From: Gracilaria domingensis
Lineage: Eukaryota; Rhodophyta; Florideophyceae; Gracilariales; Gracilariaceae
Length of the DNA stretch: 64,000 nucleotides
Assembly: GCA_022539475.1 (NCBI GenBank)
Contig: VCMS01000096.1
Coordinates: 203,762 to 267,761 of the forward strand
Direction: 5' to 3'
A program made the position numbers and the translations under genes. How positions within the stretch are numbered: the first letter of the stretch is position 1; each line of letters starts with the position of its first letter. Below the pieces are notes generated by a model that searched no databases, was not told where the DNA came from, and saw nothing but the letters and a program-made list of their open reading frames with translations. Below are positions 15,003-32,640 of this stretch, in pieces.

Positions 15003-15519
15003 AGCAGGGTATGTCGTCCTCAAGAGTCCTCATCGAGACCCTCGGGTCTCCCAAACGGGACAGCTGCGCCGCAGCTTGGTGTTTGACACCCGCGCGGTGC
15101 ACCACGTCAAAGTCAAACTCTGACAAGCGTAGGCGCCAGCGTGCCAGTCGTCCCGGTACAGTCGGCCAATTAGGATCCACCTCAGCGAATGGTGGTCAGT
15201 CCCCACCGTGAATCTTTCACCTTCCAGATATGGCCTTAAAAGAAGCATCGACCACACAACCGGAGGCATTCCTTCTCGGTGGTCGTGTACTTCCGCTCCG
15301 CCCGCGAGATGGAACGGCTCCAATACCCAACGGGTTTGTACTCCTTCCCATCTGGTTGGTGCTGGAGTAGAGTACAGCCAACCTGGACATCGCACGCGTC
15401 CGGTGTCCAGCAGGTACGGACGTCCCGGTACGGATAAGGCCAAAACAGGTGGAGAGATCAGTCTGTCCCGTAGCTCCTGAAAGGCCTCGTACTCTTCGTC
15501 GTTCAGTATCCTAAAATTA
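15003..15519 (-). pseudogene. Ty3/gypsy RNase H fragment E
   Basis: Minus-strand remains of a reverse-transcriptase connection and RNase H domain. Visible are 'ELRDRLISPPVLALSVPGRP', 'GERFTVGTDHHSLRW', 'RLARWRLRLSEFDFDVVHR' and a degenerate 'HQAAAQLSRL' in place of the usual Ala-Asp-Ala-Leu-Ser-Arg. Two frames are needed. It is cut on the left by the N gap and on the right by X copy 2, which begins at 15520. It is more diverged from A than fragment D is, so it represents another family. Confidence 0.85.
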
Positions 15520-15985
15520 TCGTCTGTGTTCTGCAAAGTGGAATATAGTCTGTTCGCTTTGGAAACTAAGCTAGTTTTGGGCTATTTGGGGCGCGCGAGG
15601 GGGTGGCAGAGGCTGGCACTCAAAAAATTAAGAAATTTTGGAATATTAAATTCCATCTCGCGCAGTTTAGTTCTTGGGTCCCCTAGTTTTTGTAGAGGTT
15701 CTACTTCGCCGCACCACCCATTCACTCTTTTCCGCAACCCTCTCTCAAAACTGCACTCGTGCTAGTTTGCGTTTCCATTTTCTCCCATGTTGCAATGCCA
15801 ATCGCAACTCATCCCACCTCAATCATCCCATCACTTCTTCCCAGTCCACACCACCCCCGCTATTTACCCATTTCTCGCCCATCACGCGTTCGCATCCTCT
15901 CTCTTCGTCTCCGCAAACGTCATTTTGTAGAAGTCAGGTGGACAACCCTCCCCCTTCTCGTATACCCGCCTCGCCCAAAACGGCT

Positions 15986-16874
15986 TCACATCCCTCCCAT
16001 CCTTCTCTCCTCCTGTCCCCTCAGAATCCCCTTCGCAGTCCGCGCTACCTCCGCCGCACTCCTAAACCCAGTCACCACCGGAGCTCCCACTCCCTCCCGC
16101 GGCACCTCCTCCACCACCTTCTTCATCTCCTTACGCCTCTTCTTCAGACGGCTCTTCCCATCCCCAACCCCACCACCCTTTGTCTTCGGTGTCACAGGAG
16201 ACCCCTTCTGCACCGCCACCCTTCCCACACTTCCCTTCTCCGTCTTTTCCTCCACACGTCCTTTCACCGTCTCCTCTTCCACCAATCTTTGCCTCTTGCC
16301 CAGCTCCTTCACCTCCTTCTCCAGCACGTCCAACCTCTCGTTTAGAACCCTATTCTCCTCCCGCAACTATCGAACCTCCCTTCCCGCACACTCCACTATC
16401 CCATACACATGATTTCTCATCTCCACTCCCAATACCGACAACGAATTCCGCAGGCTCGAAATCGCCTCAACCGAAACACCACTACCATCCCCATTCAGCA
16501 CCACACCGCCCATTTCCGTTACAATCTCCACAATTCCATCGTCCAGTTGCTCCTTCATCACCAACCCCAAGATCCCCACCCTCTCCGCCCCCACTCTCTA
16601 TCTGGTCTCCAACTTCCAACTGACTCAGATGCACCGCACCCCTTCCCTCCATTGCGACCCCCTCCACCTCCAATTCTACACCCTTCTCCACCTCATCACC
16701 ATCCCCTCTTCTCGCCTCACACTTCTCTTCTTCATCGGCCATTTCCTGATTCTGCGACATCCGACCAGCCGCCTTAATCACCTCCTCTTCCCGCTTTGGT
16801 GACGGCGTCGGCGGTACCTCCTTCCCCTCCAACAGCGCCAACAGCTCCTTATCGTTCACGTATCCGTTCGACAT
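15986..16874 (-). pseudogene. Coiled-coil protein of element X, broken copy
   Basis: Same gene as at 6824-7753, starting MSNGYVNDKELLALLE on the minus strand at 16874. A frameshift near 16590 leaves the first reading frame. A TAG at about 16367-16369 falls where copy 1 has a Gly-Glu pair before 'LREENR'. The coiled coil (LNERLDVLEKEVKELGKRQR) and the basic tail 'SRLKKRRKEMKK' are otherwise preserved. Only one of the two copies could therefore make full-length protein. Confidence 0.8.
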
Positions 16875-17110
16875 CTTCAGAAGAAGAAGTAGTAGTTGGA
16901 TCGAAGTTTCCGCTGCGATACAGTGCAATCGAGCTAAACTGTGCTGTCCATCCCCACTGTCCAACCACACGGGCTAATATCCAGCACCATGATTGTCCCT
17001 GTTTCCCTCATCCCATTTCCCGCGAAAACATGTACTGTACACCTCCGCACCTTCCACTCTTTAAGCGCCACCCTCTGTCCTCTCTTTCGCGCTCACATAG
17101 TCCCCACCCA

Positions 17111-17449
17111 CCTCGCCTCGACCGGCGATATTTTTCTCTTCCACTATAACCTCACTCGATGGTTATAGCAAAACAGGAAGATATTGCCAGTGGAGGCAAG
17201 CTAGGGACTAGTGATTGTACTTAGAGTAGCTCACCCTCTGTCTCGACTGGGGGCATCTTCTTCTTCCGTCACATCCTGTGTGGGTTGTGACAAAAAAAGA
17301 ATATGTCACCACTCGACACCGGATGGGTAACAATGATACCACGTAGAGTAGTTCATCCTCCCTCTCAGCGTCCACTGGGGATATACTGATGTTCTCTCAC
17401 ATTCTTTCCCGGTTGTGATACAAGAGAAATACATCTCCAATGGAGACGG
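17111..17449. repeat. Three tandem long hairpins (X copy 2)
   Basis: Mirror of 6254-6598. Hairpin 1 (17111-17200) pairs 'gatatttttctcttcc' with 'ggaagatattgcc' around an inner ataacc/ggttat stem. Hairpin 2 spans 17241-17318, with an inner gtcacatcc/ggttgtgac stem. Hairpin 3 spans 17367-17449, with tctcaca/ttgtgata. Spacers repeat 'gtagagtag.tcatcctccctct'. Preserved in both X copies despite scattered base changes. Confidence 0.8.
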
Positions 17450-17514
17450 AGAATATAGTCATGATAACACGTAAAGGTAACAATGTAATAAACAATAATT
17501 TTACGCTACTATCT

Positions 17515-17835
17515 CTAACCAGCCTTTCCAAAACCAGTTATGACATGAGCTGGGTTACTCGAGCCAAAGATGGCAGATCCTGCAACTGAAATGTTTGCAC
17601 CGGCCTTCACTACTCCTTTCACAGTACTCAGTCCAATACCCCCATCCACCTGTATCCCTATTCTTGGGTACAACTCCCTTGCATGTCGCACCTTATCAAG
17701 AACACCCTCCATAAACGCCTGTCCTCCAAACCCTGGCTCCACCGTCATCAACAATAACATGTCTACAACTCCTTCCTTCATAAGTGCTTCTACGACCTTT
17801 ATAGACGTATTCGGGCACAACCCAACTCCATCCTT
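17515..17835 (-). pseudogene. RPE: Ribulose-phosphate 3-epimerase, C-terminal half (X copy 2)
   Basis: Nearly identical to 5870-6190: VEPGFGGQ, QVDGGI and SVAGSAIFGS are intact. Small changes include Cys for Arg before PNTS, Glu for Lys in 'HARELYP', and the last residues (GFGKAG). No start codon or N-terminal barrel half. It lies between the triple hairpin and the divergent Rossmann ORF, as in copy 1. Confidence 0.85.
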
Positions 17836-18231
17836 TTAATTATGGCAATCCGAGTGAAGCTATAGAACCCGTTCACGTCATTTATGAAGCCAAAGTGGCT
17901 CCGTTCATCCTGTATTCAAGCTCCCCTAACTCGTGCTTTACAACTACTTTACAACTCAGGTTCGAAATCAGTTTCATTCATTGTACACTTTCTACTCTTC
18001 CACCTACTTTTCATAAAACATCATCACACTTTGTGGCTTGTCGTCTCATACAAGCCCTATCATTCATTCAGTACAATCACATATCATACATTTCGCTCAC
18101 TTTCACAATGTCAACCATGTTCCCGTTCTGCGCTTTCCAACCGTTTGTACTTAAGTATCACTCTTTACCCCAGCAGTTCTCCGCTCCATCTTCCATTTTT
18201 ATCGTCACACAAAAACAATCGAACACTTGCA

Positions 18232-19134
18232 ATGAACTCCCAGTCCGACATGCCTCCCACTCCGCCTCCGAGTCCCAGATACTCTGACTTCCCTCAAACC
18301 TCATCTCCCACCCGAAGGACTCGGGCCCTTATTGTTGGAATGGGGCGTATAAGTACCATACTTGCGAACGAAGAAGATATGGTCATTTCCGCACACGAAT
18401 TCTACAGCATGGCTGCTACCTCTCATCTTTCTGATGTACAGATACTAGTTTGTGGAAGAACGAACACCCTGGAGACCGTAATTCAGGCTTGCCCTTATTC
18501 GCTGAGAGAGAATATCGTTTTCTTTCAGAATGGAGACATCATACCCTTGGTTTCGCTGCTCGGTGTGGAGAAATGTTCAAAAGTTGTCCTATACGTTGGT
18601 GTCCCCTCAAGAAACGCAGCTTCGCAGGATGGTGTCACTCCTCAAAGTCCGGATGGTCTCACTGTCGCAACAGGAAAGTGGGCCTCCAACGTTGCAGACA
18701 GGTTTAGGTCTATGGGTCTCACTTGCGGGGTTGTCGACGAAGACACATTTCTCGTAAGCTATTATGAGAAGCCCGTGTGGCTATCAGCTTTCAGCATCGT
18801 CGGGGCCTCAAGAGGTTTCATTCCTATGGACGTAGTCGCTACGAAGTGCAGTACGGTTTTGCTCACAATAATGAAAGAGCTGTTGAAGATAGTTTCGCTG
18901 AAGACAGGTACTACTTTCAACCTGGAAGAGACCGTTGGACGACTTCTTGCATATGGGAAAACTCTCGTTGGCTTCCGTACATCTTTCTCCGACTTTCAGT
19001 TTAGGAACGCGTACTTCTACGAGTTTTCTCGCCAAGAAAGAAACATCGTAGGCGGTGACCCCGCTCCTTTTCATACAAACTACGTCAACGTTGTTAAGGA
19101 AAAGTTATCCCCCTCCCCATTCTCCCAGCTTTGA
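18232..19134 (+). CDS. Rossmann-fold protein, X copy 2
   Basis: 300 residues from the ATG of MNSQSDMPPTPPPSPR. Compared with the copy at 4541-5473, the dinucleotide turn reads LIVGMGRISTILA, with Ser replacing the third Gly of GxGxxG, which should weaken NAD(P) binding. The C-terminus ends SPFSQL through a frame difference rather than SFEVRKHDFSVL. Upstream, the frame is open to 17884 but that part is out of frame in copy 1, so I do not include it. The gene is divergent from the epimerase fragment with about 400 bp between. Expression and substrate are unknown. Confidence 0.55.
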   Translation: MNSQSDMPPTPPPSPRYSDFPQTSSPTRRTRALIVGMGRISTILANEEDMVISAHEFYSMAATSHLSDVQILVCGRTNTLETVIQACPYSLRENIVFFQNGDIIPLVSLLGVEKCSKVVLYVGVPSRNAASQDGVTPQSPDGLTVATGKWASNVADRFRSMGLTCGVVDEDTFLVSYYEKPVWLSAFSIVGASRGFIPMDVVATKCSTVLLTIMKELLKIVSLKTGTTFNLEETVGRLLAYGKTLVGFRTSFSDFQFRNAYFYEFSRQERNIVGGDPAPFHTNYVNVVKEKLSPSPFSQL

Positions 19135-19217
19135 GGTTAGAACACATAAATTTTCGGTGTTGTAAACCTTTTAGAGAGATTTAAACATAAAAGTTACTTT
19201 ATCGAAATGACCTGTTC

Positions 19218-19758
19218 ATATTACATTACTTATATAGTTCGTCCTTCTGTGGTTCAAATATGCCCTTTAAATCCTACATCCCTTATCACTAATACCTTGC
19301 TAAGTTTTTGCTAGATGGAAAAGGGTCATTCCACATCATTAAAGTGCACGATACTAGTAACAAAACAAGTACAAATTGTGATATTTCTGAAGAACTAAGC
19401 CTTTGCAATACTTGGGCCACCCGTATAAAGTAAGGTAAACCTTTTATGGGTTTCAACCCTTAATGGAGGTTGTTTTACTGATCTTGATTTCTAAGCTCAT
19501 GTTGAAGATATTCATAGTTTTCTTTACCCACTTGAACCCGTACATATAATTTATGACTAAATCATCCTTTCTTTACTGCAAATCGATGCAAAAGCTTCTC
19601 GTCGTAGTAACGTTTTAAAACAGTACTACAATACCCGTATATGGTCGTTCTTACACTCTTTTTATACTACAAAACACCTTGTGAACATCAATCACATCCG
19701 TTTCATTCGTATACCCACACTCATTTGCAAAACGAACCCTTTCGAAAGCTTTCAAAAC
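19218..19758. other. AT-rich intergenic sequence
   Basis: About 540 bp with no coding frame or repeat that I can see. A TATA-like 'ctttttatactac' about 100 bp before the ATG at 19759 could serve the HAD gene. Confidence 0.5.
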
Positions 19759-20631
19759 ATGTATAACTCAGAAGTTAGAGCCCAAGAAGTAACTCCTCAG
19801 CAGCTGGCTAACGAAATATTCGATAATGGCTGCGCCGTGATTAGTGATATTGACGGTACTCTGGAAAGAGCTGGGGAGAACATTCCTGCCGAAACAGTCA
19901 AATGCATGAAGTACATCAATGCACGCGTTGGTTTTGGAATTGCTACTGGGCGAGATGTAGAGGATGCCGAGAGTTTCATGGAGCACCTGGGTGGCTACAC
20001 TTTTGGCATCTCTGAAAACCAAGGCGCACGGGTGAGATTATCCAATGGTACCGATATTGATCATGACCTTGACAGGGAAGGCTTCGAAAGATGTGCAGCC
20101 GAACTTGAGAGACTTGCACTCTCCTTAAATTAATCGCACGGACTTCATGAAGAGCGTCAACAAGCAGTTGTGAGCACTAGAAAAGACAGTGGACTCCCTA
20201 ACTTCACGCACAATAGACTGTCGAAGTGGAAAACGGAAGTTAACTCCGGTATTTCAAAAGTGTTGACATCCTTTCCGAACCTGGTTGCGTACCCTCAAGA
20301 TGAAAACTGTGACATAGGGGACATTCGTTTCACGAAAAATAGTGGGGCGCTAGCCTTGGTTGAAAACGACCCCCAGTTCGACACACATTTAATCGTTGCT
20401 TTCGGGAATGCTTCCAATGATGGCCCACTATATGAAATGGCAACCCTGGCAGTTCATGTGAAGGGAGACGACCATCCAGCAGCGGTAACATATCTTGTTG
20501 ATGCAGTGGAGGACGTGCATGAGACCATCAGAAGGGTGGCAGAACTGTACGGGTACAGAAAATGCAATTTTCAATGGTTTAGAAATGCTCTTGGAATTTG
20601 TTTCAAGTGCTACGATGCCTGTAATACTTAG
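19759..20631 (+). pseudogene. HAD-superfamily (type IIB) phosphatase, one nonsense codon
   Basis: From the ATG of MYNSEVRAQEV. HAD motif I is VISDIDGTLE with both Asp residues (nucleophile and acid/base), motif II is GIATGRD, and motif IV is FGNASNDGPL. The cap region lies between about residues 85 and 200. This layout fits Cof/sucrose-phosphatase/mannosylglycerate-phosphatase relatives that hydrolyse small phosphorylated metabolites; the substrate cannot be told. A TAA at 20131-20133 splits the frame. The reading frame continues unchanged to 20631, and alignment with the neighbouring paralogue shows that the stop replaces a sense codon within the cap. So active-site residues are intact but the chain is interrupted. 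Convergent with the paralogue at 20683. Confidence 0.75.
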
Positions 20632-20682
20632 CTAGGATATGAGATCTCAGTAATAAAATGTCGTATATATCTCAATACCCTT

Positions 20683-21522
20683 TTATGATTCATGGTGGTT
20701 TTTATCGTGCTGCTTTTCCTCGTAGCCGTACAACAGAGGCACTAACATAATTGTCGAATGTACATCCTCCACGCTTTCGAACAGGTTGTGTACTCCACCT
20801 GGGATACAATCTTCTTTGACGTGAACGCCGTACACGCCTACCTCATGCAAAGGCCCGTCGCTCAAAGCACTTCCGAACGTCACGACGTCATCCGGATCAA
20901 TAAATCTCGGTTCATTATCCACAAGATTTGCTCCTCCGCTTCCTTTTGTGTATCGCTTGTCCACAATTTCGCAACTTTTATCGCCGGGATAGACAACAAA
21001 CGAATCCATCTTCTGCAACAGGTCCCCAATAGCAGAATCCACTTCTTCTCTCCACTGCCACAGTTTGTTGTACACGAAATTGGGAAGGCCACTATCACTT
21101 CTGGTCTCCACAAACCCCTTCTCATCATCATTCAAAAGACCATGCCTCCTACTCAAATCCCTTGCCAGGAACAGTAGTCCGTGAACAGTGTGGTCAAGAA
21201 TGTGATCATTGAATGCAGCCTTAATTTCCCTCTCGTCAGAGAAACGGAGGAAAGCTCCATGATTCGCCGAGACACCAAACTTATAGTCTCCGAGTCCTTC
21301 CATTTTCTCCTCTAGGTCGCCCACATCACCCCCTGTGACAAGTCCGAAACCAACACGTTCGTCAATGAACTTCATACACTTCACAACTTCTTCTGGAATT
21401 GACTCTCCTTCTCTTCTCAACGTTCCATCAACGGAACTTAATATACCGTAACCATTGGCATATATGAACTTAGACAAGGTATTGGGTGAAATTTCCGCCA
21501 AGTCTCTCTGTTCCTCTGCCAT
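20683..21522 (-). CDS. HAD-like pseudo-phosphatase paralogue
   Basis: 279 residues, uninterrupted, from the ATG of MAEEQRDLAEIS; a longer in-frame start 24 codons upstream adds a Cys-rich stretch. It aligns along its whole length with the neighbour at 19759. However, motif I reads ILSSVDGTL, with Ser replacing the nucleophilic Asp; motif II is LVTGGD (Arg lost) and motif IV is FGSALSDGPL. HAD phosphatases need that first Asp for the phospho-aspartate intermediate, so catalysis by the usual mechanism is unlikely. A binding or regulatory role is possible. A 45-codon piece almost identical to residues in its second half is fused to the ParB-like gene at 4312-4447. Confidence 0.75.
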   Translation of the reverse strand: MAEEQRDLAEISPNTLSKFIYANGYGILSSVDGTLRREGESIPEEVVKCMKFIDERVGFGLVTGGDVGDLEEKMEGLGDYKFGVSANHGAFLRFSDEREIKAAFNDHILDHTVHGLLFLARDLSRRHGLLNDDEKGFVETRSDSGLPNFVYNKLWQWREEVDSAIGDLLQKMDSFVVYPGDKSCEIVDKRYTKGSGGANLVDNEPRFIDPDDVVTFGSALSDGPLHEVGVYGVHVKEDCIPGGVHNLFESVEDVHSTIMLVPLLYGYEEKQHDKNHHES

Positions 21523-21858
21523 TTTTCTTGATACAGTCACCACACTGCCACAAGTACCGCATAGACAGGAACTGCATAAACGTCTCAGTTTCATACTTCT
21601 CTTAAAAGCAACTTTAAGTGCAGTTTCAGAAGTGTTAGGACGCTACATGTTCAATTGCGAATTGAATGGTGCCACCAATGATGTTAACGATACCGAGCAT
21701 GTGGCATGTTGCAATTAGACGCAACTGGACCAAAGACGTATGACATTTGTTCAATTACCAGCCTGCCGCACCTTTTCTATGTTCATATGTATAGCCTTGC
21801 AATAGTATACTACTCTTAATACTCGCAAGAAATTCATAATTTACTAATCATCTCATTC
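21523..21858. other. Intergenic, between divergently ended genes
   Basis: 336 bp upstream of the HAD paralogue and downstream of the dioxygenase frame. AT-rich, with no feature I can support. Confidence 0.5.
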
Positions 21859-23428
21859 TCATCCACTTCGAGGCGCTCGCAGCCTCATTATTGGCAAATC
21901 GTCATCACTACTACTCTCGAGCACTTCGGTTCTACCGGCGTCCGCTTCCACACCAATCTCCACGACCACTTGGTCTTCGTCCATGTCAACCGCCCCACCC
22001 TCCTCGTCGGACAACAGTTCATCCTCCGCCTCCTCCTCCTCGTCACCATTGACAAACGTGGGTCGGAAATCCCGCACCCGATGAACAGCATCAGGTATTG
22101 CGTAGCCCTCTGGTACCATGTATATGTGGTATCTAACCAGCAAATCCATAGACTCGGGCCTATCCACCTTGTCCTTCCCACTTGCTCCAGCATGTGTCAC
22201 ATCACCACGGGCCACGAATACAGAGTACGGTGGGATGATTATCTTCTTCGCTGGATACACCTCCGACTTCACTCGCAACTGTTGGTTGTTCATCCCCACC
22301 AGTTGATGGCTTCCAGCGCTCACCCAGAGAGGAAAGCCTTCTTTCCCAGAGGCCACTATAAAGTATCCGGGGTTACCAGTATTCATTGTTTCCTTCGTAA
22401 CGAGACCACTGAAGTCGGTGTGCAGCGTCTGGCGCTTGCACTTTCTCGTAGTCCCCAGAAATCGACCACCAGTTTTCGGAGTGTACATCTTCACAGCTTC
22501 CCTTTCATTGTCCCATAGTCCCAAAGCCGCAGCAATTGTACCCATTCGAACATCAAGTAAAGCACGCGACCTTACAACCCACCTGAGCTCCTCATTATCC
22601 TCCGGCTTCTCCACCGTACCCCAACGTGTCGACATCACTCTCCCCTCAAATGGTCCATCGCTACAGTCCTTCCATCCTTCATCATCGTTGATTATTTGAA
22701 CAAACGACTTCTGTTCCTCCCCTTTCCGTATATTTGGCATCGCTCCATACTCATTCTCGAAGAAGTCCACCAACTTCCCCGACACATCTTCGAACTCCCG
22801 AACTTCTTCCAACTCCTCCAATTTAGGGACACCATTATCCGTCGCAAAGCCATCAAGCACGCAATATCCATTCTGCCTTAGCTCAGCTTGCATTCGGGCG
22901 AAGAACATTTGCCCAAATTCGTCATGCTTTTTCGCAGCAACCCACAGCACCTCTTCATCATCCATACCTGTCGGCCGAGTACGAGGATACTGCATACCAA
23001 ATGTCTCCGCCCGTAGGCGATGTTCAGCCCTTGCAGCGTGCCAAAAAGACAAGATGGTGTACATCTCTGAGATTCGAGACACTTAGGAGCTCCGACCTAT
23101 GTCCCTCCGGCAAGTGAATGACTCTGAGCCAGGAGTCCTTGTGCTCAATTACGTTCTTCCCTTGCCATTCCTGCGGTATCAGCCTGACACACCCGCACCA
23201 TGATGGGTTCGGTGGGCCATCATGTGGGTCTCTTCGAACAAGTCCGTGCTCCTCAGATTCCGGAAGAGCTGTAGGTAACTCGTCATCAAATAACCCCCCA
23301 CCTGTCTCTTGCTGATCGTCTGGCGCAGCATCTTTCTCGACGGTGACAACCCGTAGAACTGTCACAGCAAGAAGCTCTTCGTCATCTACAAATGCAGAAC
23401 TGCCTGCGTTCTCTGCATTCGCTCCCTC
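21859..23428 (-). pseudogene. 2OG-Fe(II) dioxygenase-like segment of the leftward chain
   Basis: The long frame 21859-23082 (407 codons, no ATG at its start) carries QTLHTDFSG (His and Asp iron ligands, codons near 22414-22422). About 75 residues later is ARGDVTHAGA (second His near 22192), followed by 'LVRYHIYMV', placing an Arg where 2-oxoglutarate is usually held. This is the HxD...H...R double-stranded beta-helix signature. The tail is acidic (EEEEAEDELLSDEE). The preceding piece, 23024-23428, is in another frame but reads into the same segment (CGCVRLIPQEW, 'HKDSWLRVIHLPEGH'), so a frameshift lies near 23040-23080. It is also in the same frame as the ORF at 23429, separated by one TAA. 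Such oxygenases hydroxylate proteins, nucleobases or small molecules; the target is unknown. Confidence 0.65.
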
Positions 23429-24412
23429 TTACAATGCCACGAACTGAACCTTCATCGACCTTCCTCTCAGCACATGTTCATTTAGTTGAGACATCAGGTC
23501 ATCCGGTGTCATGCTGTTCAGAGTAGATCTCATCTGTTGTGTGAAAATCTTTCTCAGTTTCTTCCTCGGCGGAGCCCGCTGTTCTTCTTCAGAGCTATCC
23601 AGAACTTCTATGGCACCTCGATTTCGGCCGTGCTCAATTTCCCTATAACTCACCTGCGCCCGTTCTCGTGCACTTCTTCGCGGCTCCCCTTCTTCACTGG
23701 CAGATGTTGCAGCAGCAGCAGCGGGAGTACTCCTCTTCGTCACGCACTGCTTCACTGGTGCGGGGGGCGGAATTACCTTGAGCATCGTCCGCAATCGATT
23801 CAGAACGGAAGTCGTGGCAGTTCTAATTGAGTTCGTCCTGCTCCGAACACGCGGCAATGTGTTGAAGTTCACAACTTGTCCCAAAAGGAACTGATTCACA
23901 GCTGCGATGTTGTCTGGGTCTTCAACGTCATCTTCATTCGATGGAGCAGAACAACTGACTTCGCGTTTCAGGAACACTTCCATCGACTCTTCCTCGTTCA
24001 GTTCATTCCTCACTGCTCGAGCCGCGCCGAACAGAGACACTGCTCTATGACAAAAGAAACCTCGAACCTCCTCAAAGCTTTTCCATTGCTTTGTCTTCGT
24101 CGACTTACCCTGCAATAGAAACATCTGAAGACAATCAAGAATGAAGGAAAACTCCTCGGCATCCAAAACATATAGCGAAGTATGGGACAGATGTGTGAGA
24201 CCTATGTCACTCACACTCTCACATATATCCTCGAAATGGGCCAGCATTCCCTCACGAGACATGAGTTGCAGGGCGACATTGGCATATCTAAGATACTGAC
24301 GCTCTTGCACAGTCCCAATCAGTTGGCTCTCCTTCAACACTTCTGTCACTTCTGCAGGATCCACGTCTCCCGGCGTCACCCCCTCAACATCTTCAAAGAA
24401 TGGCGACCACAC
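23429..24412 (-). CDS. Unrecognised middle segment of the leftward chain
   Basis: 327 codons, beginning without ATG (GTG at 24412) and overlapping the end of the ParB frame by 20 bp. This looks like a continuation after a frameshift rather than a separate gene. The first 170 residues are mixed alpha-helical. Then come a Thr/Arg/Pro-rich linker with poly-Ala and a basic stretch (RRSARERAQVSYREIEHG). The end is acidic-then-basic with 'PRKKLRKIFTQQM', a possible nuclear signal. It stops with TAA at 23429, and the same frame stays open beyond it into the dioxygenase segment. No domain recognised. Confidence 0.5.
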   Translation of the reverse strand: MWSPFFEDVEGVTPGDVDPAEVTEVLKESQLIGTVQERQYLRYANVALQLMSREGMLAHFEDICESVSDIGLTHLSHTSLYVLDAEEFSFILDCLQMFLLQGKSTKTKQWKSFEEVRGFFCHRAVSLFGAARAVRNELNEEESMEVFLKREVSCSAPSNEDDVEDPDNIAAVNQFLLGQVVNFNTLPRVRSRTNSIRTATTSVLNRLRTMLKVIPPPAPVKQCVTKRSTPAAAAATSASEEGEPRRSARERAQVSYREIEHGRNRGAIEVLDSSEEEQRAPPRKKLRKIFTQQMRSTLNSMTPDDLMSQLNEHVLRGRSMKVQFVAL

Positions 24413-25775
24413 TAACTATAGAGTGTATCTTGTCTGCAAACATCATCCTTCGCATGGTAGTCGTCGACTCATTGAGGTACGAAGCAACACATAACAATTC
24501 CTTCATCCCAATGGGCCTCCCATCTCTTCGTATCAGCAGATTGCAACGCCAAAACTTGGCTAATTGCTTGCACTTCGGTGCACCAGTCGCTGCCAAATAT
24601 TGTATAGCTTTCAGACGATGCAAACCATCTACAATGAAGCACTTCTTCGTTAGGCGTCCCTTGTCAGTATCCCTCCCTCCCGTAGTAGCATCTTGTAAGG
24701 CCACCACTGGAGAACCCATCGACTGCAATATCTGCCGCTCCTCCATACTCTTCACAAGGGCTTCAACGTGGCGTTTACTTACTCCACGGAGTAAATTGGG
24801 CGGAGTGTCCACCAGAGTGATGTCAACAGTAACAACAACCATCCGGTAGTGATTGAGGTTCACCTTTGGTACCTTCTGACGAATTCGTCTGTACATCTTG
24901 CTCCGAGTAGGTGTCCCTTGTGTTCCAGACCGCTCGCCAGAAACACTTGAACGTGCCATTCTTGCGGACAGAAGCACAACGTCATCGTCGTGCTGCTCCG
25001 CAGTTTCTGGTGCAGTTTGAGGTACAGATGGACCAGCTCCTTGTGCGGATTGCGCATCCGCGTCTGGAAGGGGACCTTTTATGATCTCATCTTCCTCTTC
25101 CTGCACAGCCGTCCCGTGCTGAACCGTCTCTTTCGACGCAGATGTTTCCCTTGCGTCGACAGTCTGATTCATCGCAGGAGATGCCTTTTCCGACGCAGTG
25201 GGCTTCGTAGCGGAGGTAGACTTTGTTTGACCTGTCCGCTTTGTAGCTGGGGATGATCTCGTCTCCTTATTCCGCTTCGTAACAGACGATGGACCGGCCC
25301 GCGGAGGGGCTACTGATGCGCTACCTCTCGGTGTCGATGAACTTCGAATTGTCTCCGTGCGGCTTGTCGGCGTCATCACCCCACTCATAGCGCTCACCGT
25401 TCGTCGCTTGGACGCTGGAATGCTGGCTGCCACCGGTTCCATCATTTTCTCATTCCAAGGAGCGGCCGTCCGGAGATCCTGGATGTATTGTGGAAGATCC
25501 AGGCCCTCCGCCCGGTAAGGGTAGAACTTCTGACCGCTTCGAATGATGAGAATATTATGCACCACCACAAGACCTGGGTCCAATTGCTTCCCGTTCAACT
25601 CCCGGAGTAGAACATTTCCAATTCCATGCAACAACGCTTCCCCGACTATCACCTTTTCTTCATTCTCAATATCCATCCGCAGAGAAACCCGCATTCCACC
25701 TTGCAATGATCAAGTGCTCCGCCGAGTGCGAGGAGTCACACTTTGTGTACGCTTTCGAACAAGAGTTGGCTTCAT
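24393..25775 (-). pseudogene. ParB/sulfiredoxin-fold protein, start of the leftward chain
   Basis: ATG at 25775 (MKPTLVRKRTQ...) as in the left copy at 3396, but a TGA after about 22 codons replaces CGA of that copy. From there the frame is open to 24393 and could be rescued by ATG at 25694 (MRVSLRMDIE). About 240 residues of low-complexity Ser/Thr/Pro/Lys sequence precede the domain. It begins at 'VVVTVDITLVDTPPNLL' and contains KCFIVDGLHRLKAIQYLA, the ParB-type box II (acidic, Gly, His, Arg), then a helical 'NESTTTMRRMMFADKIHS'. ParB domains bind centromere-like DNA with CTP, or act as nucleases. A palindrome array lies directly upstream. Recognition rests on the box II motif, so it is moderate. 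Confidence 0.6.
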
Positions 25776-25844
25776 GTTGAACAGCTATTGCAGTGAAAGG
25801 TGTATATCAACAATACGCTCGCTCTGGACGATACAAGAACGGAG

Positions 25845-25930
25845 GCGAGCCTTTAAATGGCGACTTACGCTGGGCACCCCCGCTTTCGGTAGCTCCTCCC
25901 GGCGCACTGCCAGTCTCGTCCGTGTCCTGT
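25845..25930 (-). promoter_or_regulatory. Shared promoter module, right ParB copy
   Basis: Complement of the module at 3244-3330 with few changes; includes the TATA-like 'ccatttaaagg'. It lies 70 bp upstream of the ATG at 25775. Confidence 0.7.
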
Positions 25931-26209
25931 CCGTGGCCGCTCGCACGCTGATTGTACGCTTTAGAGTCGTGGAGTTCGCGCAATGATGACTCACGCGAGC
26001 AATGGTCGCGCTCTCTAATCGTGCTCTTCAAATGCTTTGCATAGTAGTCAAGAGTACACTCATTCACTTTCATGTACAGCCTACTCCCGCCAATACACGT
26101 GGACAGCGGCGCCAAGGTACAGGCGGCCGGGTGTAGCGAAATCACTGCGCGGCGGCGTGTTTTGGGAGGTCTCGGGACGGCGCCGGAATGTGGCCAGAAC
26201 GTGCCCGCG

Positions 26210-26372
26210 GGCATAAAATCTCATATTTTTCAAAAAATCCCCCAAAACGTGCCCGCGGGCCAGGGGGCTCGGTCGTGTTAGGGTAGGTACCCTAACACGA
26301 CCGGACCCCCCCGCCCGCGGGCATAAAATCGCACATTTTTCAAAAAATCCCCCAAAGCGTGCCCGCGGGCAC
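26210..26372. repeat. Palindrome array 2 (one TTAGGG palindrome, four gcccgcgggc)
   Basis: One palindrome, 26270-26303: cggtcgtgttagggta, two central g bases, then the complement. It is flanked on both sides by 'cccgcgggc' blocks separated by 'acatttttcaaaaaatccc' tracts. Same building blocks as arrays 1 and 3. Confidence 0.95.
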
Positions 26373-26627
26373 GTTCTGGCCACATTCTGGCACCCTCCGG
26401 AGACCTCCCAAAACACTCTTCCCGGCAGTTCCGGCAGCGATTTCGCTGCACAGTCCGTCCACATATATCAAACTAGAGAAAACTAGTGCTTCGCACCCAC
26501 TTGGTCCGCGACTATTATCACAATACGCGACCTTTGCAATAGCTCCGAATCGCGACGTGGCCGTCACGCGACGCTATCGCACCCGCTCGAAGCGGCACGG
26601 ACAACGACCTCAGAAGCGAGCGGAAAC

Positions 26628-26710
26628 GGACACGGACGAGACTGGCAGTGCGCTGGGAGGAGCTGCCGAAGGCGGGGGTGCCCAGCGTAAGTCGCCATTG
26701 AAAGGCTCGC
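26628..26710 (+). promoter_or_regulatory. Shared promoter module, rightward chain
   Basis: Same module as at 3244-3330, with 'ccattgaaagg' in place of 'ccatttaaaagg'. Its end is 22 bp before the ATG at 26733, which supports that start codon. Confidence 0.7.
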
Positions 26711-26732
26711 CTCCGTTGTTTGCGCTGAAGCG

Positions 26733-28088
26733 ATGAATTCCACCGATGATGGAGAGGAGATACATCCTATCTGCATGAGTGCTTCGCCTCCCGCGTTCCA
26801 TGCATATGTCAGACTTTTCTTGGTTCTTCGCGATGCTTTGGCAAACAGCGATGGAGGCCCTGATCTGCCACGGGACGTGAGGTTTAGAGGGCTAATAGAG
26901 TTCTGCGCCGAGAACTATAAGGATATTCCGGAGGCAAGGAAGATGTTTGAGGAGGAGGCCACTAACTCCAAGAACCTGCAGAACTTGACACTGCAACAGC
27001 TGCGAAAGAGTGTTGTGAATAACAAACCTGTGGAGCAACGATATCTTGTAACAAAGCTTCTTGACAAGAAGGACGGAGATGAGGACCAGAGATTCCGCGA
27101 TTTTTTCTTTCTCTCTATGGATATGGGTATATACCTACCGGTGCGATGCCTGGTTAGTTATTTCATGACCAGGAGAAAGCAGGTTCTGAAGACGACAGTG
27201 TTCATGCCACCAAAAGCTGTGAACCCATTTGAGGTCGTTATATACTTATCATACCTCGGCCACATAATGGGAAAGAACGACGACATCAGAATGATGAAGA
27301 AAAAACAACCGAAAAAGATACGAAAAGTGAACCATGCACCATCTGTGTACACACCCACTTTTACGTCGTTCTCCAAAGACAACTGTGACCAACTGGGATT
27401 CGCTATCAGTGAGGTCGTATGGGCATGGAGTTGTTTTGCGGCTCATATTGGATACACGAACGTTCAGCACATGGTGAAACCATACATTTACATGAATATG
27501 CAGAGGTTGAAGTATACAGCGCTAGAGATACGGGAGTCTGGTTATGCCCCGCCGAGCCAGAGTACTCGATTCAACACACAGGATGTGCCACAGAGCAGTA
27601 CTAGTGGATCGGTGGAGACCTTGAGTGATGAATGCGATACAAACCTGCGAATACTGGCTAAGGAATTTTTTACAGACCTCGAAACCATATGCACCCACGA
27701 TAGCCTCTATAGCTTACCGGTTGATCAGATGAGGAACTGCATAGAGTTTTCGGGGATACGGATGGATACCGTATCTGGTTCTGACTCCGGTGAGTTGCCT
27801 GCACGATTTCAGAACTTTTCGGAGTTGCTATGGAAACCGATACAGGATATGCGTCATGCGGCAGGGTTCAATGTGGGCATTCACGCAAAACCCGATATTG
27901 AGCTGACGAAAACTCCTAAAACTTCCGGTAATGCCGAACCTTCTTCGACCAAGTCTGCCCCACCCCCACCTCGTCGAGAGTATATGGACCTCGTGAGCTC
28001 CGATAGCGATGACTTCGAGAAGCCGGTGAATCGTGCGGAGCATGAATCTCGGGTTGCCAGTTACAACATCCAAAAGACTGGTATTTAG
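26733..28088 (+). CDS. Unrecognised 451-residue protein, first segment of the rightward chain
   Basis: Intact from ATG (MNSTDDGEEIHPICMS) to TAG. The N-terminal 200 residues are mixed helical with a Lys cluster (MMKKKQPKKIRK) near residue 190. Residues about 210-260 have an aromatic-rich helical segment (VVWAWSCFAAHIGYTNVQHM). The last 60 residues are a Ser/Pro/acidic linker (APPPPRREYMDLVSSDSDDF). I recognise no family. The stop is followed two codons later by the ATG of the methyltransferase in the same frame, so the protein may be the N-terminus of a larger ancestral protein. A new type of recombinase or DNA-binding head is possible but unsupported. Confidence 0.7.
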   Translation: MNSTDDGEEIHPICMSASPPAFHAYVRLFLVLRDALANSDGGPDLPRDVRFRGLIEFCAENYKDIPEARKMFEEEATNSKNLQNLTLQQLRKSVVNNKPVEQRYLVTKLLDKKDGDEDQRFRDFFFLSMDMGIYLPVRCLVSYFMTRRKQVLKTTVFMPPKAVNPFEVVIYLSYLGHIMGKNDDIRMMKKKQPKKIRKVNHAPSVYTPTFTSFSKDNCDQLGFAISEVVWAWSCFAAHIGYTNVQHMVKPYIYMNMQRLKYTALEIRESGYAPPSQSTRFNTQDVPQSSTSGSVETLSDECDTNLRILAKEFFTDLETICTHDSLYSLPVDQMRNCIEFSGIRMDTVSGSDSGELPARFQNFSELLWKPIQDMRHAAGFNVGIHAKPDIELTKTPKTSGNAEPSSTKSAPPPPRREYMDLVSSDSDDFEKPVNRAEHESRVASYNIQKTGI

Positions 28089-28094
28089 CCGCCC

Positions 28095-29315
28095 ATGAAG
28101 GGGATATCCAGTCTCCTTCGAATGAATATGGACAAGGTGTGGAAGAGAATGAGAAAGTCATACTTTGTAGCGTACAACTGTGACATGAAGGACCTGAGGC
28201 ACACACACGAAACATTTGTGAATCAGAGTGAGATTTTATGGGGTGAGGCACAGCTTGTCCTAACAGACCCTCCCTTTAACACTCGAAGGAAGAGAAGCAA
28301 ACGGAATAGTGCTCACGATTTCTTCAGTGAGGATGACATGATCAGTACGGCTGACTTAATAAGTTCCGCGCTTCGGTCAGGTGGGCACTTCATTATATTC
28401 TGTGCCATGGCACAGTTTCATGTTTGGCACAGGATACTTTCGGAAACGGCGAGTACGGAAGATGAAGCTGGAAGCGAAGGTAAGCCAGAACTCATGCCTT
28501 CGTTTAAAGTGGATGGGAATCCACTGGTGTTCATCCGGGATCGAAGTAATGTTGGAGGGAATCCACGGAAGTTTGGGATACAGCCCATTACGGAGTACGC
28601 CGTTCATAGGGTGAAGCGTGGATTGCGACCATCTGAGGAAGCCAGTCTTGCTTCATTTGAGGAGAACAATTTCATTCCTTCTAATTTCCCGGCTAACAGG
28701 AATGTAATAAACCGGGTGCCAAAACCGAGAGCGGGGGAGTGGTTGACATGGAGGGTAAATGAGACAGGTCGTTCAGTACCAAGTGGGCAGTACATAAGAC
28801 CGGAGCAGAAGTCCAGGGAGTTGATGAAAGAGTTGATATGTCGGTTCACAAGACCGTGTGATCTTGTCATGGACATGTTCGCGGGAACGTTTTCTACGGG
28901 TATGGCGTGCCTACCGCTGACAAGGCATAGGACGTTCTTGGGGTGCGAGAAGAACAGGCCATGTTTCAGCCATGCGAAGCACCATATAACGACTCTTATG
29001 GCCAAAGTTCTTCGAGGGGGGAAGAATGACATCGTGGTTGAACAGGAGGTGGTGGATGCTGCTTCAACGACTTATGAACGGGTTCCACATCGGGACCGAG
29101 GTCGGCTTGAATGGGAGGCTCCATTTGGACACCCCCAGTACCAAGTAATGCCTGCACATATTACTCAGTTCCTAGGAAGATACTGGAAGGACTGGGAGTT
29201 TGTCGACAAGTGTGGACAACATACTGTAGATCTTTGGGACGAGAAGTACCGAGGAGCTCTGAATCTAATGGATATGCATATGCTGTTGACTGTTGAAGCC
29301 AATCGCTATCGCTAA
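28095..29315 (+). CDS. Beta-class DNA amino-methyltransferase (N6-adenine or N4-cytosine)
   Basis: 406 residues. Motif IV is VLTDPPFNT at residues 56-64 and motif I is MDMFAGTFSTG at about 260-269. Motif IV before motif I is the beta-class order (CcrM-like bacterial enzymes), unlike the MT-A70 enzymes usual in eukaryotes. DPPF rather than DPPY/DPPW/SPPY fits the amino-methyltransferase group without fixing the base. The 'VPKPRAGEWLTW' to 'IRPEQKSRELMKELI' stretch ahead of motif I matches the usual 'K..LL..LI' helix (here RELMKELI). The ORF is intact. The frame continues after TAA at 29313 into a SET domain. Predicted to methylate DNA in the nucleus; the site is unknown. Confidence 0.82.
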   Translation: MKGISSLLRMNMDKVWKRMRKSYFVAYNCDMKDLRHTHETFVNQSEILWGEAQLVLTDPPFNTRRKRSKRNSAHDFFSEDDMISTADLISSALRSGGHFIIFCAMAQFHVWHRILSETASTEDEAGSEGKPELMPSFKVDGNPLVFIRDRSNVGGNPRKFGIQPITEYAVHRVKRGLRPSEEASLASFEENNFIPSNFPANRNVINRVPKPRAGEWLTWRVNETGRSVPSGQYIRPEQKSRELMKELICRFTRPCDLVMDMFAGTFSTGMACLPLTRHRTFLGCEKNRPCFSHAKHHITTLMAKVLRGGKNDIVVEQEVVDAASTTYERVPHRDRGRLEWEAPFGHPQYQVMPAHITQFLGRYWKDWEFVDKCGQHTVDLWDEKYRGALNLMDMHMLLTVEANRYR

Positions 29316-29871
29316 CATGTAGCATCTTCTAAGATTCGACATCCCCGTGCTGGTATGGGGGTGTTCATGGAACATAAGATATTGGCTGGGGAAACTATCT
29401 GTCATTTTTATGGAGCTTTGGTATACACGGATCTGACGAACCGGAATGAAAGACACTTAACGTATGGAAGTGGCTGTCTCGGAGCAACTCCAGTGCGGTA
29501 CAAATTGTTTTCTATGATGATCACTGTGACTGGTTCGGAGTTTCTGCACCTGAAGAACAGACCAGACAGGCTCAGGATAGAAAGGAGAGCGAAGTCTACA
29601 TTGTCCCGGCGCCTTTTTGTATCGGGAGCTACATTAACGACGCCGGATATCATGCCGGGGATCCCGATTTATCGCAGCCCCGGTCAAAGAGGACTCGAAG
29701 TGCCAATATGCAGATGGTGGAAGCGAAGTCCGTGATACAGTTTAAGTCCGAACTTTTTAACTATGCTCTACTTCGTTGTAGAGCAGTAAGAGATATTGAG
29801 AGGGGCGAAGAGTTGTATTTCAACTACGGAGAGCAGTACGTGTGGGACTGGGCTCTGACATTGGAGCAATA
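29316..29871 (+). pseudogene. SET-domain segment of the rightward chain
   Basis: Directly after the methyltransferase stop, and in the same frame, is 'ASSKIRHPRAGMGVFM', then ILAGETICHFYGALVY, the start of a SET domain. After about 29470-29530 the meaningful frame shifts by one. 'ESEVYIVPAPFCIGSYIND', 'YALLRCRAVRDIERGEELY' and FNYGEQYVWDW follow, to a TAG at 29869. The FNYGE end is the SET catalytic Tyr region. SET enzymes methylate lysines, typically of histones. No pre-SET or post-SET cysteines are visible. A frameshift or an unrecognised intron must be invoked for a whole domain. There is no ATG before 29355, in the middle of the first SET strand, so independent translation is doubtful. 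Confidence 0.75.
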
Positions 29872-30065
29872 GATGAGTTCAGTACCGAATAGAAAGTAAA
29901 TATGCTTGTGAAAGTTGCAGCTGCCTGCAATACGCGTTGTACATGTACACTGGAGCTCTTCATCTATTTGTAACGGCGATATTTGTGACCCATTGGGCAC
30001 CTCAAATTCCTAAAAAGCAGGAACTGCGGAGTCTCCCGGAATATCTGCACTATACACCCTGATAG

Positions 30066-30683
30066 ATGAGTTACTCCTCGACCTTCCCCTCTTTCCAGAA
30101 CGGGGCCCTTGCAGCTCGTACGAGGCCGAATTCATCTGATATACGATGCCATGGACGAGGACAGACACGGGAGTTGGAGCTCGGAGCCGTGCCAAGGATG
30201 GACACAGAACGCCTGCAGCCTCTCGTGTCTAAGGGTATGGCACATGAGGATAGTTCCAATAACGAAATAACACCGAATCCTGCGGCATTACCGGGGCCTG
30301 TCGCCGAAGAGGCTAGGGAAATACCGGAAGATATCCACACTGGTGTGAATTCAAGCTCTATGAACAGACCTGATCTTTTAAATGAACTGAATTGCTTGAA
30401 AGAAAAGGTTAAGACGCTACAAGAGGACTTGATGGTTCGGGGAATTCTAGTGAAGGTCGCCCAAGAGCAGAGTACGGCTTTGAAAATTAGGCTTGAAGAG
30501 AAGGATCTAGTCATTGAAGGGCTAAGAGGGGCACTGAAACAGGAGGGAGATAGGAGTACACGTGCTGGTGAACCTGGGCAGACAGGTCGAAAGAAGCATA
30601 AAATTGAGGCGCGACGAGTTTTGAGGGGTTGCTCGAGCAGTGTATCACAACATGCTGACGTGAGCAAGGAGAGAAACAAGTGA
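30066..30683 (+). CDS. Coiled-coil protein downstream of the SET segment
   Basis: 205 residues from ATG. The first 100 are disordered-looking. Residues about 105-165 have heptads (LNELNCLKEKVKTLQEDL, 'IRLEEKDLVIEGLRGAL'). Then comes a basic GRKKHKIEARR, probably nuclear. A perfect splice-donor-like 'aaggtgagt' lies at 30696, just after the stop, so the true 3' end may be spliced. It is in the same frame as the three segments before it, though nearly 200 bp away. Function unknown. Confidence 0.45.
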   Translation: MSYSSTFPSFQNGALAARTRPNSSDIRCHGRGQTRELELGAVPRMDTERLQPLVSKGMAHEDSSNNEITPNPAALPGPVAEEAREIPEDIHTGVNSSSMNRPDLLNELNCLKEKVKTLQEDLMVRGILVKVAQEQSTALKIRLEEKDLVIEGLRGALKQEGDRSTRAGEPGQTGRKKHKIEARRVLRGCSSSVSQHADVSKERNK

Positions 30684-31122
30684 GCTTTGTCTCGAAGGTG
30701 AGTCGCTCACCCGAAATTGGGGTAACCGTGCCGAGAAGGTGGAAGACGCAACTGAGAGTGGGGAAGGGCTTATTGAGCCGGAGGAAGGTGGTTCATACAT
30801 GGTTTTTAGGGGAATTGCGGTATGTTTGCTGCATGGGCATTCTTGGTGTCGTTGCTTGTGAGTTCTCGCTTCAGGACCTTTCGCGTTTTACGATGAATGG
30901 ATTGCTGGTAATCTAACCGATCCTTTTCCTTCTTCTTCTTTCTTTTGCGGGTTACTAGGTCCCTCGATTTTCTAGCGCAACGTTTCTGGTTTGCTTTAAT
31001 GGTACGTTCCATCGCATTTCAAATGTATCCAACGGAGCATTGACTAACTCATTGATACTTTCTGCTTGCGTATACAGGTAAATGACTTTTGATGCCTACG
31101 TAACTCACGAGTTGCAGGTGCA
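30684..31122. other. Spacer without a supported gene
   Basis: Only short shadow frames are present. A donor-like site near 30696 and an acceptor-like 'tatacag' near 31072 could bound an intron. Confidence 0.35.
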
Positions 31123-31290
31123 GGTTCCTCAAGTAGGGAACCATGCATCTGGGCATGGTTCCCTAGATGAGGAACGGAGAGGATGAGGCGCTTTGCGCCT
31201 CATTTTATCGGAGTGCGTATTTGTTCTACCGATACCGCACTTTAGTGCAGGTGCCCTCTGCGGCATCTACCGCAGATTGCGCCTACACCC
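31123..31290. repeat. Cluster of perfect short hairpins
   Basis: Nested stem at 31123-31173: gttcctc pairs with gaggaac around gggaaccatgc/gcatggttccc, with matching internal bulges. Then at 31182-31204 atgaggcgc-ttt-gcgcctcat, and at 31258-31274 tgcgg-catcta-ccgca. They resemble the mini-hairpins of the LTR elements and may be the 3' edge of another copy. Confidence 0.85.
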
Positions 31291-31649
31291 GCTTCATCAT
31301 GGGGAAATGGTACATGTAATATAGCGAAGTAGTAGTCAGCAAAAGCGGTCAATAAAAGAATAGAAACCAATAAAATGGTATGATTTAATAATGGACATCA
31401 TCTGTACTAGCAACAGTATTCCATGCGTTGCAGGGTATCATTCCGCAGAAGGTATCGTGTAATGTGCACCTTAATGGAAACTGAACCTAGACTTCGCGAA
31501 ATACCGTTCAGGTAGCCCTCGACTAAAGAACTACCACGAGCGGAATACCCACCAGTATTTACTGCACAGCGATTCTGGACGACCCAAGCAATTATCTTCA
31601 AAATTTGAAATAATTGATCTCGATATTTTTTCAAAAACTTTACTGGACG

Positions 31650-32640
31650 ACCGTTGCCACTTTCTGGAAGACCGTCGCCAAAAACTAGCATCTGCAAGAG
31701 ACAGACGATCAGGTTGTCCCTTCTCAAGTTTCCTGTTCAAAGGTGCAGCAATGCGAGCGAAGTTAGGGACAAATCTTCAAAACACATTGCACAGTTCTAC
31801 AAAGGAGCGGATTCCCGTCTGGGTCGTAGGCGGTTTAGCCTGCCTAATGGGATCGCACGTTCTCTGGGAAACCTGTAGTTTTCCGGGCCGGAATACGTGT
31901 CCAAGGTAGTCTACAAAGGCCTGGAAGAAGAAGCATTTCTTCAGCTTCAGAGTGACTCCAGCATCCCGTAAAAGAGTCAGAACGTGGCGAACGTGCCGGA
32001 AGTGCTCTTTCACAGAGCGGGAGTAGATGATGACGTCATCCAAGTACACCAGAGCGTACTGCCACTTGACCTTATTCAGGATGATATCCAGCGCCCTCTG
32101 AAAGGGAGCGAGCGCATTCTTCAACCCGAAGGGCATTCGCGTAAAGCGGTAAAAACCCATATGGGACGTAAATGTCGTCTTGTCGCGATCTTCTTCCGCA
32201 ATCTCAACCTGCCAATGCCCACTATTGGCGTCGAGGGTTGAGAAGATGGTGGCTTCTCCGAGGAAATCAATACACTCATCCATACGTGAGATGGGGTATG
32301 CGTCCCAAGGGGTCACGGCGTTGAGCCGGCGGTAGTCAATACAGAACCGCCAGCTACCGTCCTTTTTCTGGGCAACACTACAGGGCTTGCCCATTCAGCC
32401 TTTGAAAGTTCAATGACGCCCGAGTCCAACATACGTTGAACCTCGAGGCCTTCCATTGCTCTGGCCTTGTGCCCAGCCCTGTAGGGAACTTGACATACCG
32501 GTTTTGAACCCGGTTCGAGTGCAATCCTGTGTAAGGCCGCGTGTATGTGACCGAGGCGGCCCGACCACATATCCTCAAAGTCCTGTAGAAGGTCGATAAT
32601 TTGGCCCTTGTGGGAAGAGAATTCTTCACCAATCTGGACC
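31650..32640 (-). pseudogene. Element C reverse transcriptase
   Basis: Readable motifs are KPVCQVPYRAGHKARAMEG in the pre-RT region, 'KDGSWRFCIDYRRLNAVTPW', 'STLDANSGHWQVEIAEEDRD', FGLKNALAPFQRALD and catalytic VYLDDVIIYS. After these are LGHVFRPGKLQV and 'VPNFARIAAPLNRKLEKGQP'. A frameshift near 32390 separates the pre-RT region from the palm, and a stop follows 'LCNVF' at 31777. RNA-directed DNA synthesis domain of the element; inactive as written. Confidence 0.9.

Follow-up and report, generated by a model that had tools for sequence, protein, structure and literature searches.

A giant Plavaka-type DNA transposon in Gracilaria domingensis with a predicted methylase-SET fusion gene and a divergent ParB-like fusion gene

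The window analysed in this work is a stretch of 64,000 nucleotides of the red alga Gracilaria domingensis (contig VCMS01000096.1, positions 203,762 to 267,761). It contains a defective copy of an element which, judged from its ends and from the transposase of a complete copy, is a giant Plavaka-type (CACTA/EnSpm-like) DNA transposon. Two divergent genes start from a shared region of this element, each predicted to be a single fusion gene: rightward, an N-terminal part without known domain followed by a DNA methylase and a SET domain, and leftward, a ParB-like domain followed by a linker and a segment with an HxD...H...R motif. We consider it on balance probable that the ParB-like and methylase-SET proteins serve to mark and regulate the copies of the element that encodes them. 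The features of the window copy, with open reading frame abbreviated as ORF, are the following:

15519-15520, left target-site duplication AT, probable (partner at 31708-31709; present once in nine empty gypsy sites)
15521-31707, plus strand, giant transposon copy, whole, 16.2 kb, transposase lost
15521-15538, plus strand, left terminal inverted repeat CGTCTGTGTTCTGCAAAG (copy comparison)
21859-23082, minus strand, leftward gene, C-terminal part with HTD...H...R motif, oxygenase-like by motif only (ORF, alignment)
23024-24412, minus strand, leftward gene, middle part (ORFs 23429-24412 and 23024-23365, one protein in other copies)
24393-25706, minus strand, leftward gene, N-terminal part with a low-complexity region and the ParB-like domain (VDGLHRL; ORF, PHROG)
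25707-26732, divergent regulatory region with inverted modules and four CCCGCGGG palindromes (26204, 26252, 26314, 26362)
26733-28088, plus strand, rightward gene, N-terminal part without known domain (ORF; stop at 28086)
28095-29315, plus strand, rightward gene, beta-class DNA amino-methyltransferase (TDPPF, then DMFAGT; Pfam, alignment)
29316-29869, plus strand, rightward gene, SET domain, frameshifted in the window copy (in-frame SET in other copies)
30066-30804, plus strand, truncated accessory ORF, beyond which other copies continue into the transposase part, absent here
30805-31707, plus strand, right subterminal region, shared with the right ends of C91 and other fetched copies
31690-31707, minus strand, right terminal inverted repeat, imperfect (reverse complement CGTCTGTCTCTTGCAGAT; copy comparison)

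The extent of the window copy was set by comparing the window with ten copies fetched from the 77.89 Mb assembly of G. domingensis, which was the genome searched; copies are named after their contigs (C91, C117, C248, C100, C104, C296, C81, C20, C165, C351, C409 and C382). Homology begins at 15519-15521 in all nine copies whose left end was fetched, and the window copy stops at 31707. The insertion interrupts a Ty3/gypsy element, and nine gypsy loci (L032-L040) continue through the insertion point without transposon and thus represent the empty site. Two further loci (L030 and L031) share the left junction of the window at 99% identity and are therefore probably duplicates or alleles of the window locus. 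The termini, CGTCTGTG... and ...CAGACG, are short, imperfect inverted repeats. A 2-bp direct repeat flanks four out of five copies (AT in the window, and TA, TT and AT), C91 showing AA/TT; as an inverted reading of the flanking dinucleotides fits four of the five copies equally well, three of the four dinucleotides being self-complementary, the 2-bp target-site duplication is called only probable. Counting exact matches only, the genome contains 491 left ends (23-base pattern) and 464 right ends (24-base pattern). For the DNA at 25000-26000, 39 further copies at 95% identity were found among the 40 scored out of 519 candidates, and the listed tails round to 100% identity in 40 out of 40 cases, so that many near-identical copies are present and the element appears to have been recently active or amplified.

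The many copies of the region, their defined ends and the empty sites rule out a host gene cluster. An earlier, sequence-only reading of this DNA had taken 21859-30683 as the unit, which copy comparison and empty sites extend to 15521-31707. It had rightly described a selfish repetitive element, as the counted ends and empty gypsy sites confirm, and had missed both the identity as a Plavaka-type DNA transposon and the two fusion proteins.

At position 30804 several kb have been lost from the window copy, where other copies read on. The complete copy C91 (108708-131636, 22.9 kb, with short terminal inverted repeats) carries in its right part, on the minus strand, an intact open frame of 1,100 codons which is the transposase lost from the window copy. 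It matches the Plavaka profile PF18759 (E 1.9e-15, 57.3 bits, cut-off 26.3), and of the 59 homologues among the matches listed 53 are annotated with PF18759. The frame contains YTDK, ADIPEAKD, CHRC, HLLDH and YEHAH, corresponding to the catalytic D, D and E, in our own assignment, and to C(2)C and H(3-4)H zinc motifs; its C-terminal half was aligned with 10 of these 59 homologues. As the termini CGTCTG...CAGACG match neither PlavakaA (TGT...ACA) nor PlavakaB (CATCA...TGATG), the element was placed in neither subgroup.

The identifications of the methylase and of the SET domain in the rightward gene are firm at the level of profile matches. The ORF at 28095-29312 matches N6_N4_Mtase (PF01555) with an E value of 1.1e-14 (55.3 bits, cut-off 26.7), which upholds the beta-class DNA amino-methyltransferase recognised by the sequence-only reading: motif IV (DPPF) precedes motif I (FAGT), the order of the beta class, and DPP and FAGT are invariant in the methylase alignment A1. 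Out of nine matches in PDB, seven are adenine enzymes (DpnA twice, CcrM, MboIIA, RsrI twice and EcoP15I) and two are labelled just "methyltransferase"; we take CcrM, RsrI and EcoP15I to be adenine-specific, and the present methylase is probably N6-adenine-specific as well. In C91 the SET domain (PF00856; E 2.1e-8, 35 bits, cut-off 22.4) is in frame with the methylase C-terminus, all 150 genome matches listed for it also exceed the Pfam cut-off, and its best PDB sequence match is KMT2A (E 0.0042). The SET domain proposed from the window is thus supported by C91, but not by the window itself, where it is broken by a frameshift and where 29355-29732, the single piece of the SET region scanned, has no Pfam match.

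The window stops at 28086 and 29313 are present only in the window copy among the copies aligned, eight in the case of the stop between methylase and SET. At the first junction, between the N-terminal part and the methylase, the frame is open in C91 and C117, broken by a different stop in C409 and shifted in C20, C100, C165, C104 and C351; at the second, between methylase and SET, it is open in C117, C104, C91 and C100 and interrupted in C165, C20 and C409. Among the matches listed, a single frame spans methylase and SET over 1,055 codons in seven cases and over 1,050 codons in one. Two homologues, P0001 (620 amino acids) and P0002 (684 amino acids), are 30-32% identical and have the same methylase-SET order. 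In IMG/VR, 80 of 89 loci with relatives of the methylase were kept, most matches being confined to its second half. C382 carries, in three places, methylase-SET frames that are longer (1,169-1,170 codons) and differ in match range.

For the leftward gene, the link from the ParB-like part to the middle part is uninterrupted in C117 (752 codons, sequence inspected) and, judged from length only, in C248 (801 codons), and the link from the middle part to the HxD segment in C100 (653 codons) and C104 (566 codons). For the HxD segment 102 matches are listed; two of them (C296 and C81) belong to frames that run for 1,308 codons without a stop, and ten are in frames of at least 1,200 codons, six without internal stop and four with one. 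The separate activities in two operon-like chains of the sequence-only reading are replaced by two fusion genes, in view of these open frames in other copies. Both are broken by mutations in the window copy and each is open in some copies; the pair lies in the middle of C91, and whole genes are found in other copies only.

The identification of the ParB-like domain is of moderate strength and comes from profiles. When cut out from C91, the isolated domain matches four PHROG ParB-like families (E 2.4e-4, 5.6e-3, 0.012 and 0.19), two of which are also matched by that of the window copy (E 0.013 and 0.041); the best profile match of the whole window ORF is just E 0.63. The order of secondary structures in its AlphaFold2 (AF2) model agrees loosely with ParB. 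A ParB profile built from the IMG/VR methylase loci had one candidate ORF only and was dropped, and no phage relatives of the ParB-like and HxD parts were found. HxD...H...R is an oxygenase motif, although a motif is not proof. In an alignment of ten copies H221, H297 and R317 are each present in nine and D223 in all ten; the C91 copy has lost two motif histidines. The AF2 model of this segment, made from three near-identical sequences, has a mean pLDDT of 27.7 and is unusable. P0064, a hypothetical protein of G. domingensis (95% identical over 98%), is the one protein related to the oxygenase-like ORF at E <= 0.001.

The region between the two genes, approximately 1 kb (25707-26732), carries two inverted modules of 93 nucleotides (25835-25927 and 26628-26720, 95% identical) and nested palindromes, in agreement with the earlier description of gene chains diverging from one shared region. 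The window contains 12 CCCGCGGG sites against about one expected, and 11 of the 12 are GCCCGCGGGC, located in the central regions of the main element and of two other elements of the window described below. The ten other copies have 64 CCCGCGGG sites, every one of them within positions 11203-12130, in the gap between the divergent genes, so that GCCCGCGGGC-type palindromes cluster between both genes in eleven copies. The array is circumstantial evidence that the ParB-like protein may bind these palindromes.

Linkage of the genes over the genome was evaluated with 129 of the 150 listed methylase matches (21 short partial ones were dropped), 150 SET matches and 123 Plavaka matches, and the counts are lower bounds. 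A SET domain follows within 1.5 kb on the same strand in at least 63 of the 129; the gap is 388 bp in 32 of these 63 pairs and 385-394 bp in 53, six gaps having no value, and at least 28 pairs share one open frame, as concluded from frames of equal length. Plavaka matches occur on the opposite strand at 4.7-8.0 kb from at least 31 of the 129 methylase matches, in groups near 5.35, 5.53 and 5.75 kb, and at least 12 have both SET and Plavaka. At least 31 of the 102 listed HxD matches have a methylase or SET in divergent orientation 4.5-8.0 kb away; this count used subsets of the 150 methylase and 150 SET matches, 40 and 34 entries selected by contig, of which five were empty. Within this genome the genes are thus linked in a fixed recurring layout and not scattered. 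Of the methylase matches without listed SET, 19 have a Plavaka match, several of them with a transposase match range of 105-317 of the model in place of 41-272; by this range they are assigned to another subfamily. Members of this second subfamily (C12, C247, C277 and others) have a methylase frame without listed SET (1,118 codons in C12) and, 5.5 kb off on the opposite strand, a 1,110-codon Plavaka frame that shows the other match range. Eight SET matches are strong (E 3e-26 to 2e-11) and lie in long frames; no methylase is listed upstream of them, and they are probably host SET genes.

Selection was estimated from pairwise ratios of nonsynonymous to synonymous substitution rates (dN/dS) and from one-sided binomial tests for synonymous excess on chosen pairs of copies, the comparisons sharing copies and being non-independent. 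For the methylase dN/dS is 0.36-0.59 in seven comparisons covering at least 401 of 406 codons, and 0.35 in an eighth of 53 codons, with p values of 2.6e-4 to 0.035 for synonymous excess in four pairs. The rightward N-terminal part gives 0.44-0.67 (p 0.0054 and 0.044), the transposase 0.28-0.63 (p 0.0024 and 0.0057), and the methylase end plus SET, with C91 as reference and few changes, 0-0.87. These values support constraint on the methylase, the rightward N-terminal part and the transposase. The ParB-like N-terminal part gives 0.56-0.86, and the HxD part 0.38-0.74 against the window copy and 0.8-2.2 against C91, with a weak synonymous excess (p 0.028 and 0.092). Two left-arm ORFs (CC342 and KPR) scatter around 1 (0.5-2.0) and show no synonymous excess (p 0.57-0.63).

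To the left of the leftward gene, the arm of the element carries further cargo:

17515-21594, left-arm cargo as a whole: epimerase fragment, Rossmann-like ORF and two HAD phosphatase ORFs
17515-17835, minus strand, ribulose-phosphate 3-epimerase fragment (PF00834, E 1e-24)
17866-19134, plus strand, Rossmann-like ORF, recognised by eye, no Pfam match
19681-20631, plus strand, HAD phosphatase ORF with a stop (Pfam)
20683-21594, minus strand, HAD phosphatase ORF (Pfam)

The epimerase fragment is carried by ten out of ten copies for which that part was fetched, the window included, and appears to be a captured gene piece; its dN/dS, for so short a fragment, ranges from 0.16 to 3.0. The two HAD-IIB phosphatase ORFs (19681-21594) are paralogous, 45% identical and in opposite orientation, and their dN/dS of 0.37-0.75 hints at some constraint.

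Elsewhere in the window a second copy runs from 8222 to 1 on the minus strand and continues past the window edge. Its existence had been noted correctly, but it is longer than the 2.4-4.5 kb given for it; its cassette is mostly deleted and its transposase partly kept, and end-to-end distances suggest by eye that it may belong to a common class of about 10 kb. A related element lies at 51869-64000. Its left end is 82% identical to that of the main element, and it has GCCCGCGGGC sites between 60.7 and 61.1 kb; relatives of the transposase follow at 62.3-63.8 kb, the best pieces reaching 52-81% identity at the protein level, and there are no matches to the cassette genes. A further left end, 80% identical, is present at 10967-11919.

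How the two fusion genes might act can be proposed as follows. The ParB-like protein would bind the GCCCGCGGGC palindromes between the divergent genes, and the methylase-SET protein would be recruited to palindromes or termini, where it would add a foreign adenine mark to the DNA of the element and a lysine methyl mark to its histones. Such marks would tag and regulate the element's own copies, most likely so that promoters or ends stay accessible in spite of silencing by the host. Should the HxD segment be an oxygenase, it could take off a mark on a base or protein, or modify it further. A complete self-addressed system, with a ParB-like reader, a linked methylase-SET writer and a fused oxygenase-like remover or modifier at the same palindrome address, appears decidedly unlikely; if true, it would mean that a mobile element maintains its own chromatin state independent of the host.

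Several observations weigh against self-marking by the element. The ParB-like box of the sequence-only reading is retained by the PHROG families, but no ParB match in Pfam was obtained for the leftward ORFs, ParB_N (PF02195) has no match in the genome in a search positive in 10 of 14 control genomes, PDB gives no support, and the AF2 model contains no reliable residue. Constraint on the ParB-like part is non-significant (p 0.086 and 0.37), and the middle part of the leftward gene (23432-24412; dN/dS 0.65-1.22) has no sign of constraint and looks neutral. The HxD and H residues of the earlier HxD...H oxygenase proposal are present, and so is the R, but the segment has no meaningful hidden Markov model, PDB or phage match, so that an oxygenase is only a motif and unproven, and the suggestion that the element possibly erases its own marks is unsupported for this reason. 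The synonymous excess loses strength when set against the two control ORFs (p 0.025 for the methylase, 0.035 for the transposase and 0.24 for the HxD part). No listed SET lies downstream of 66 of the 129 methylase matches. Finally, copies without most of the cassette persist, as the second copy (1-8222) shows, hence the cassette is not needed in cis by every copy.

The same genes could serve self-restraint, methylase and SET silencing the element's own copies either as a copy-number brake or to hide from stronger host silencing. For bdelloid rotifers a coupling by N4CMT and SETDB1 has been proposed between a bacterial-type DNA mark and transposon-silencing histone methylation (PMC8885841), a loop which a SET domain fused to a methylase could mimic; the many near-identical copies, indicating recent amplification, speak against self-restraint, and we regard this explanation as fairly unlikely. 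Control of transposition itself, in which the methylase would mark ends or replicated DNA to time the transposase, SET would give chromatin access and the epigenetic state of the genes would be secondary, is likewise unlikely in our view. Methylation-dependent control of transposons is established for Dam and Tn10 and for Spm/CACTA, and the near-constant distance of the transposase opposite to the methylase in the linked pairs fits with it, but the candidate binding array is in the middle of the element rather than terminal. That the captured genes are passenger cargo carried without function would agree with the neutral-looking left-arm pieces (the epimerase fragment and the two ORFs with dN/dS about 1), with the near-neutral middle of the ParB-like protein and with the many broken copies; the methylase and the transposase are under purifying selection, several copies have long intact frames, diverged subfamilies share the gene order and distant methylase-SET homologues exist, all of which makes it very unlikely. 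An endogenous virus or virophage-like element, to which large size, many ORFs and a bacterial-type methylase might point, can practically be dismissed given the Plavaka transposase, short inverted repeats, the probable 2-bp duplication and no viral hallmark in the Pfam-scanned ORFs, no dedicated capsid search having been made.

Marking of the element's own copies by its ParB-like and methylase-SET proteins, the reading preferred here, has precedents in part. Kojima 2025 (PMC12730594) describes Plavaka as the CMCT clade, relatives of CACTA/EnSpm, with target duplications of 2 bp in PlavakaA and of 2 or 3 bp in PlavakaB, and with TET/JBP genes in some fungal families. The Gracilaria element shares with Plavaka, as described in the parts of that paper used here, the PF18759 transposase, the C(2)C and H(3-4)H motifs and an accessory epigenetic gene; its target-site duplication, if of 2 bp as is probable, would agree with PlavakaA and some PlavakaB. 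It differs in its termini (CGTC...GACG) and in its cargo of methylase-SET and ParB-like protein. Sola1-1_Ec32 of Ectocarpus (PMC12477816) is likewise a giant algal DNA transposon (21.5 kb) with ParB-like and N4/N6 methylase accessory functions, for which its authors already propose self-binding and self-modification. In the sections of that article consulted both domains are in one protein of 1,104 amino acids, unlike here, where they are on opposite strands in two divergent proteins, each fused further (to SET and to the HxD segment), and the transposase superfamily differs. Giant EnSpm elements with accessory genes and similar ParB-methylase proteins are reported in the red alga Bostrychia (Petroll et al. 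2025, as cited in PMC12477816); these are red-algal, giant and CACTA-like as well, and may already possess the same architecture. HarbingerS and MuDR of Phytophthora are also DNA transposons carrying SET genes (cited in PMC12730594), a SET-methylase fusion not being mentioned in the pertinent part of that text. The bdelloid N4CMT, as far as described in the excerpts of PMC8885841 used, joins a bacterial beta-class amino-methylase to a chromatin domain in one protein as here, but is a host gene with a chromodomain in place of SET and SPPY in place of DPPF. The giant Plavaka repeats of Amoebidium, in the portion of PMC11244446 considered, have clusters including many tyrosine recombinases, unlike the present element. 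The literature already contains algal transposons that encode ParB-methylase proteins, as well as accessory genes on giant EnSpm elements of red algae. A methylase-SET transposon protein, or its pairing with a ParB-like fusion, was not found in the portions consulted of the literature on transposons, Plavaka, ParB, SET and methyltransferases, and by this measure the methylase-SET fusion beside a divergent ParB-like fusion on a Plavaka-type transposon may be new.

A protein in which a bacterial-type DNA methylase is fused to a histone-lysine methylase would couple two epigenetic layers which hosts normally link via separate factors. The element is suggested as a possible source of N6-methyladenine or N4-methylcytosine in red algae, and a high-copy transposon with a private palindromic address raises the question whether mobile elements can write, and not only escape, chromatin marks.

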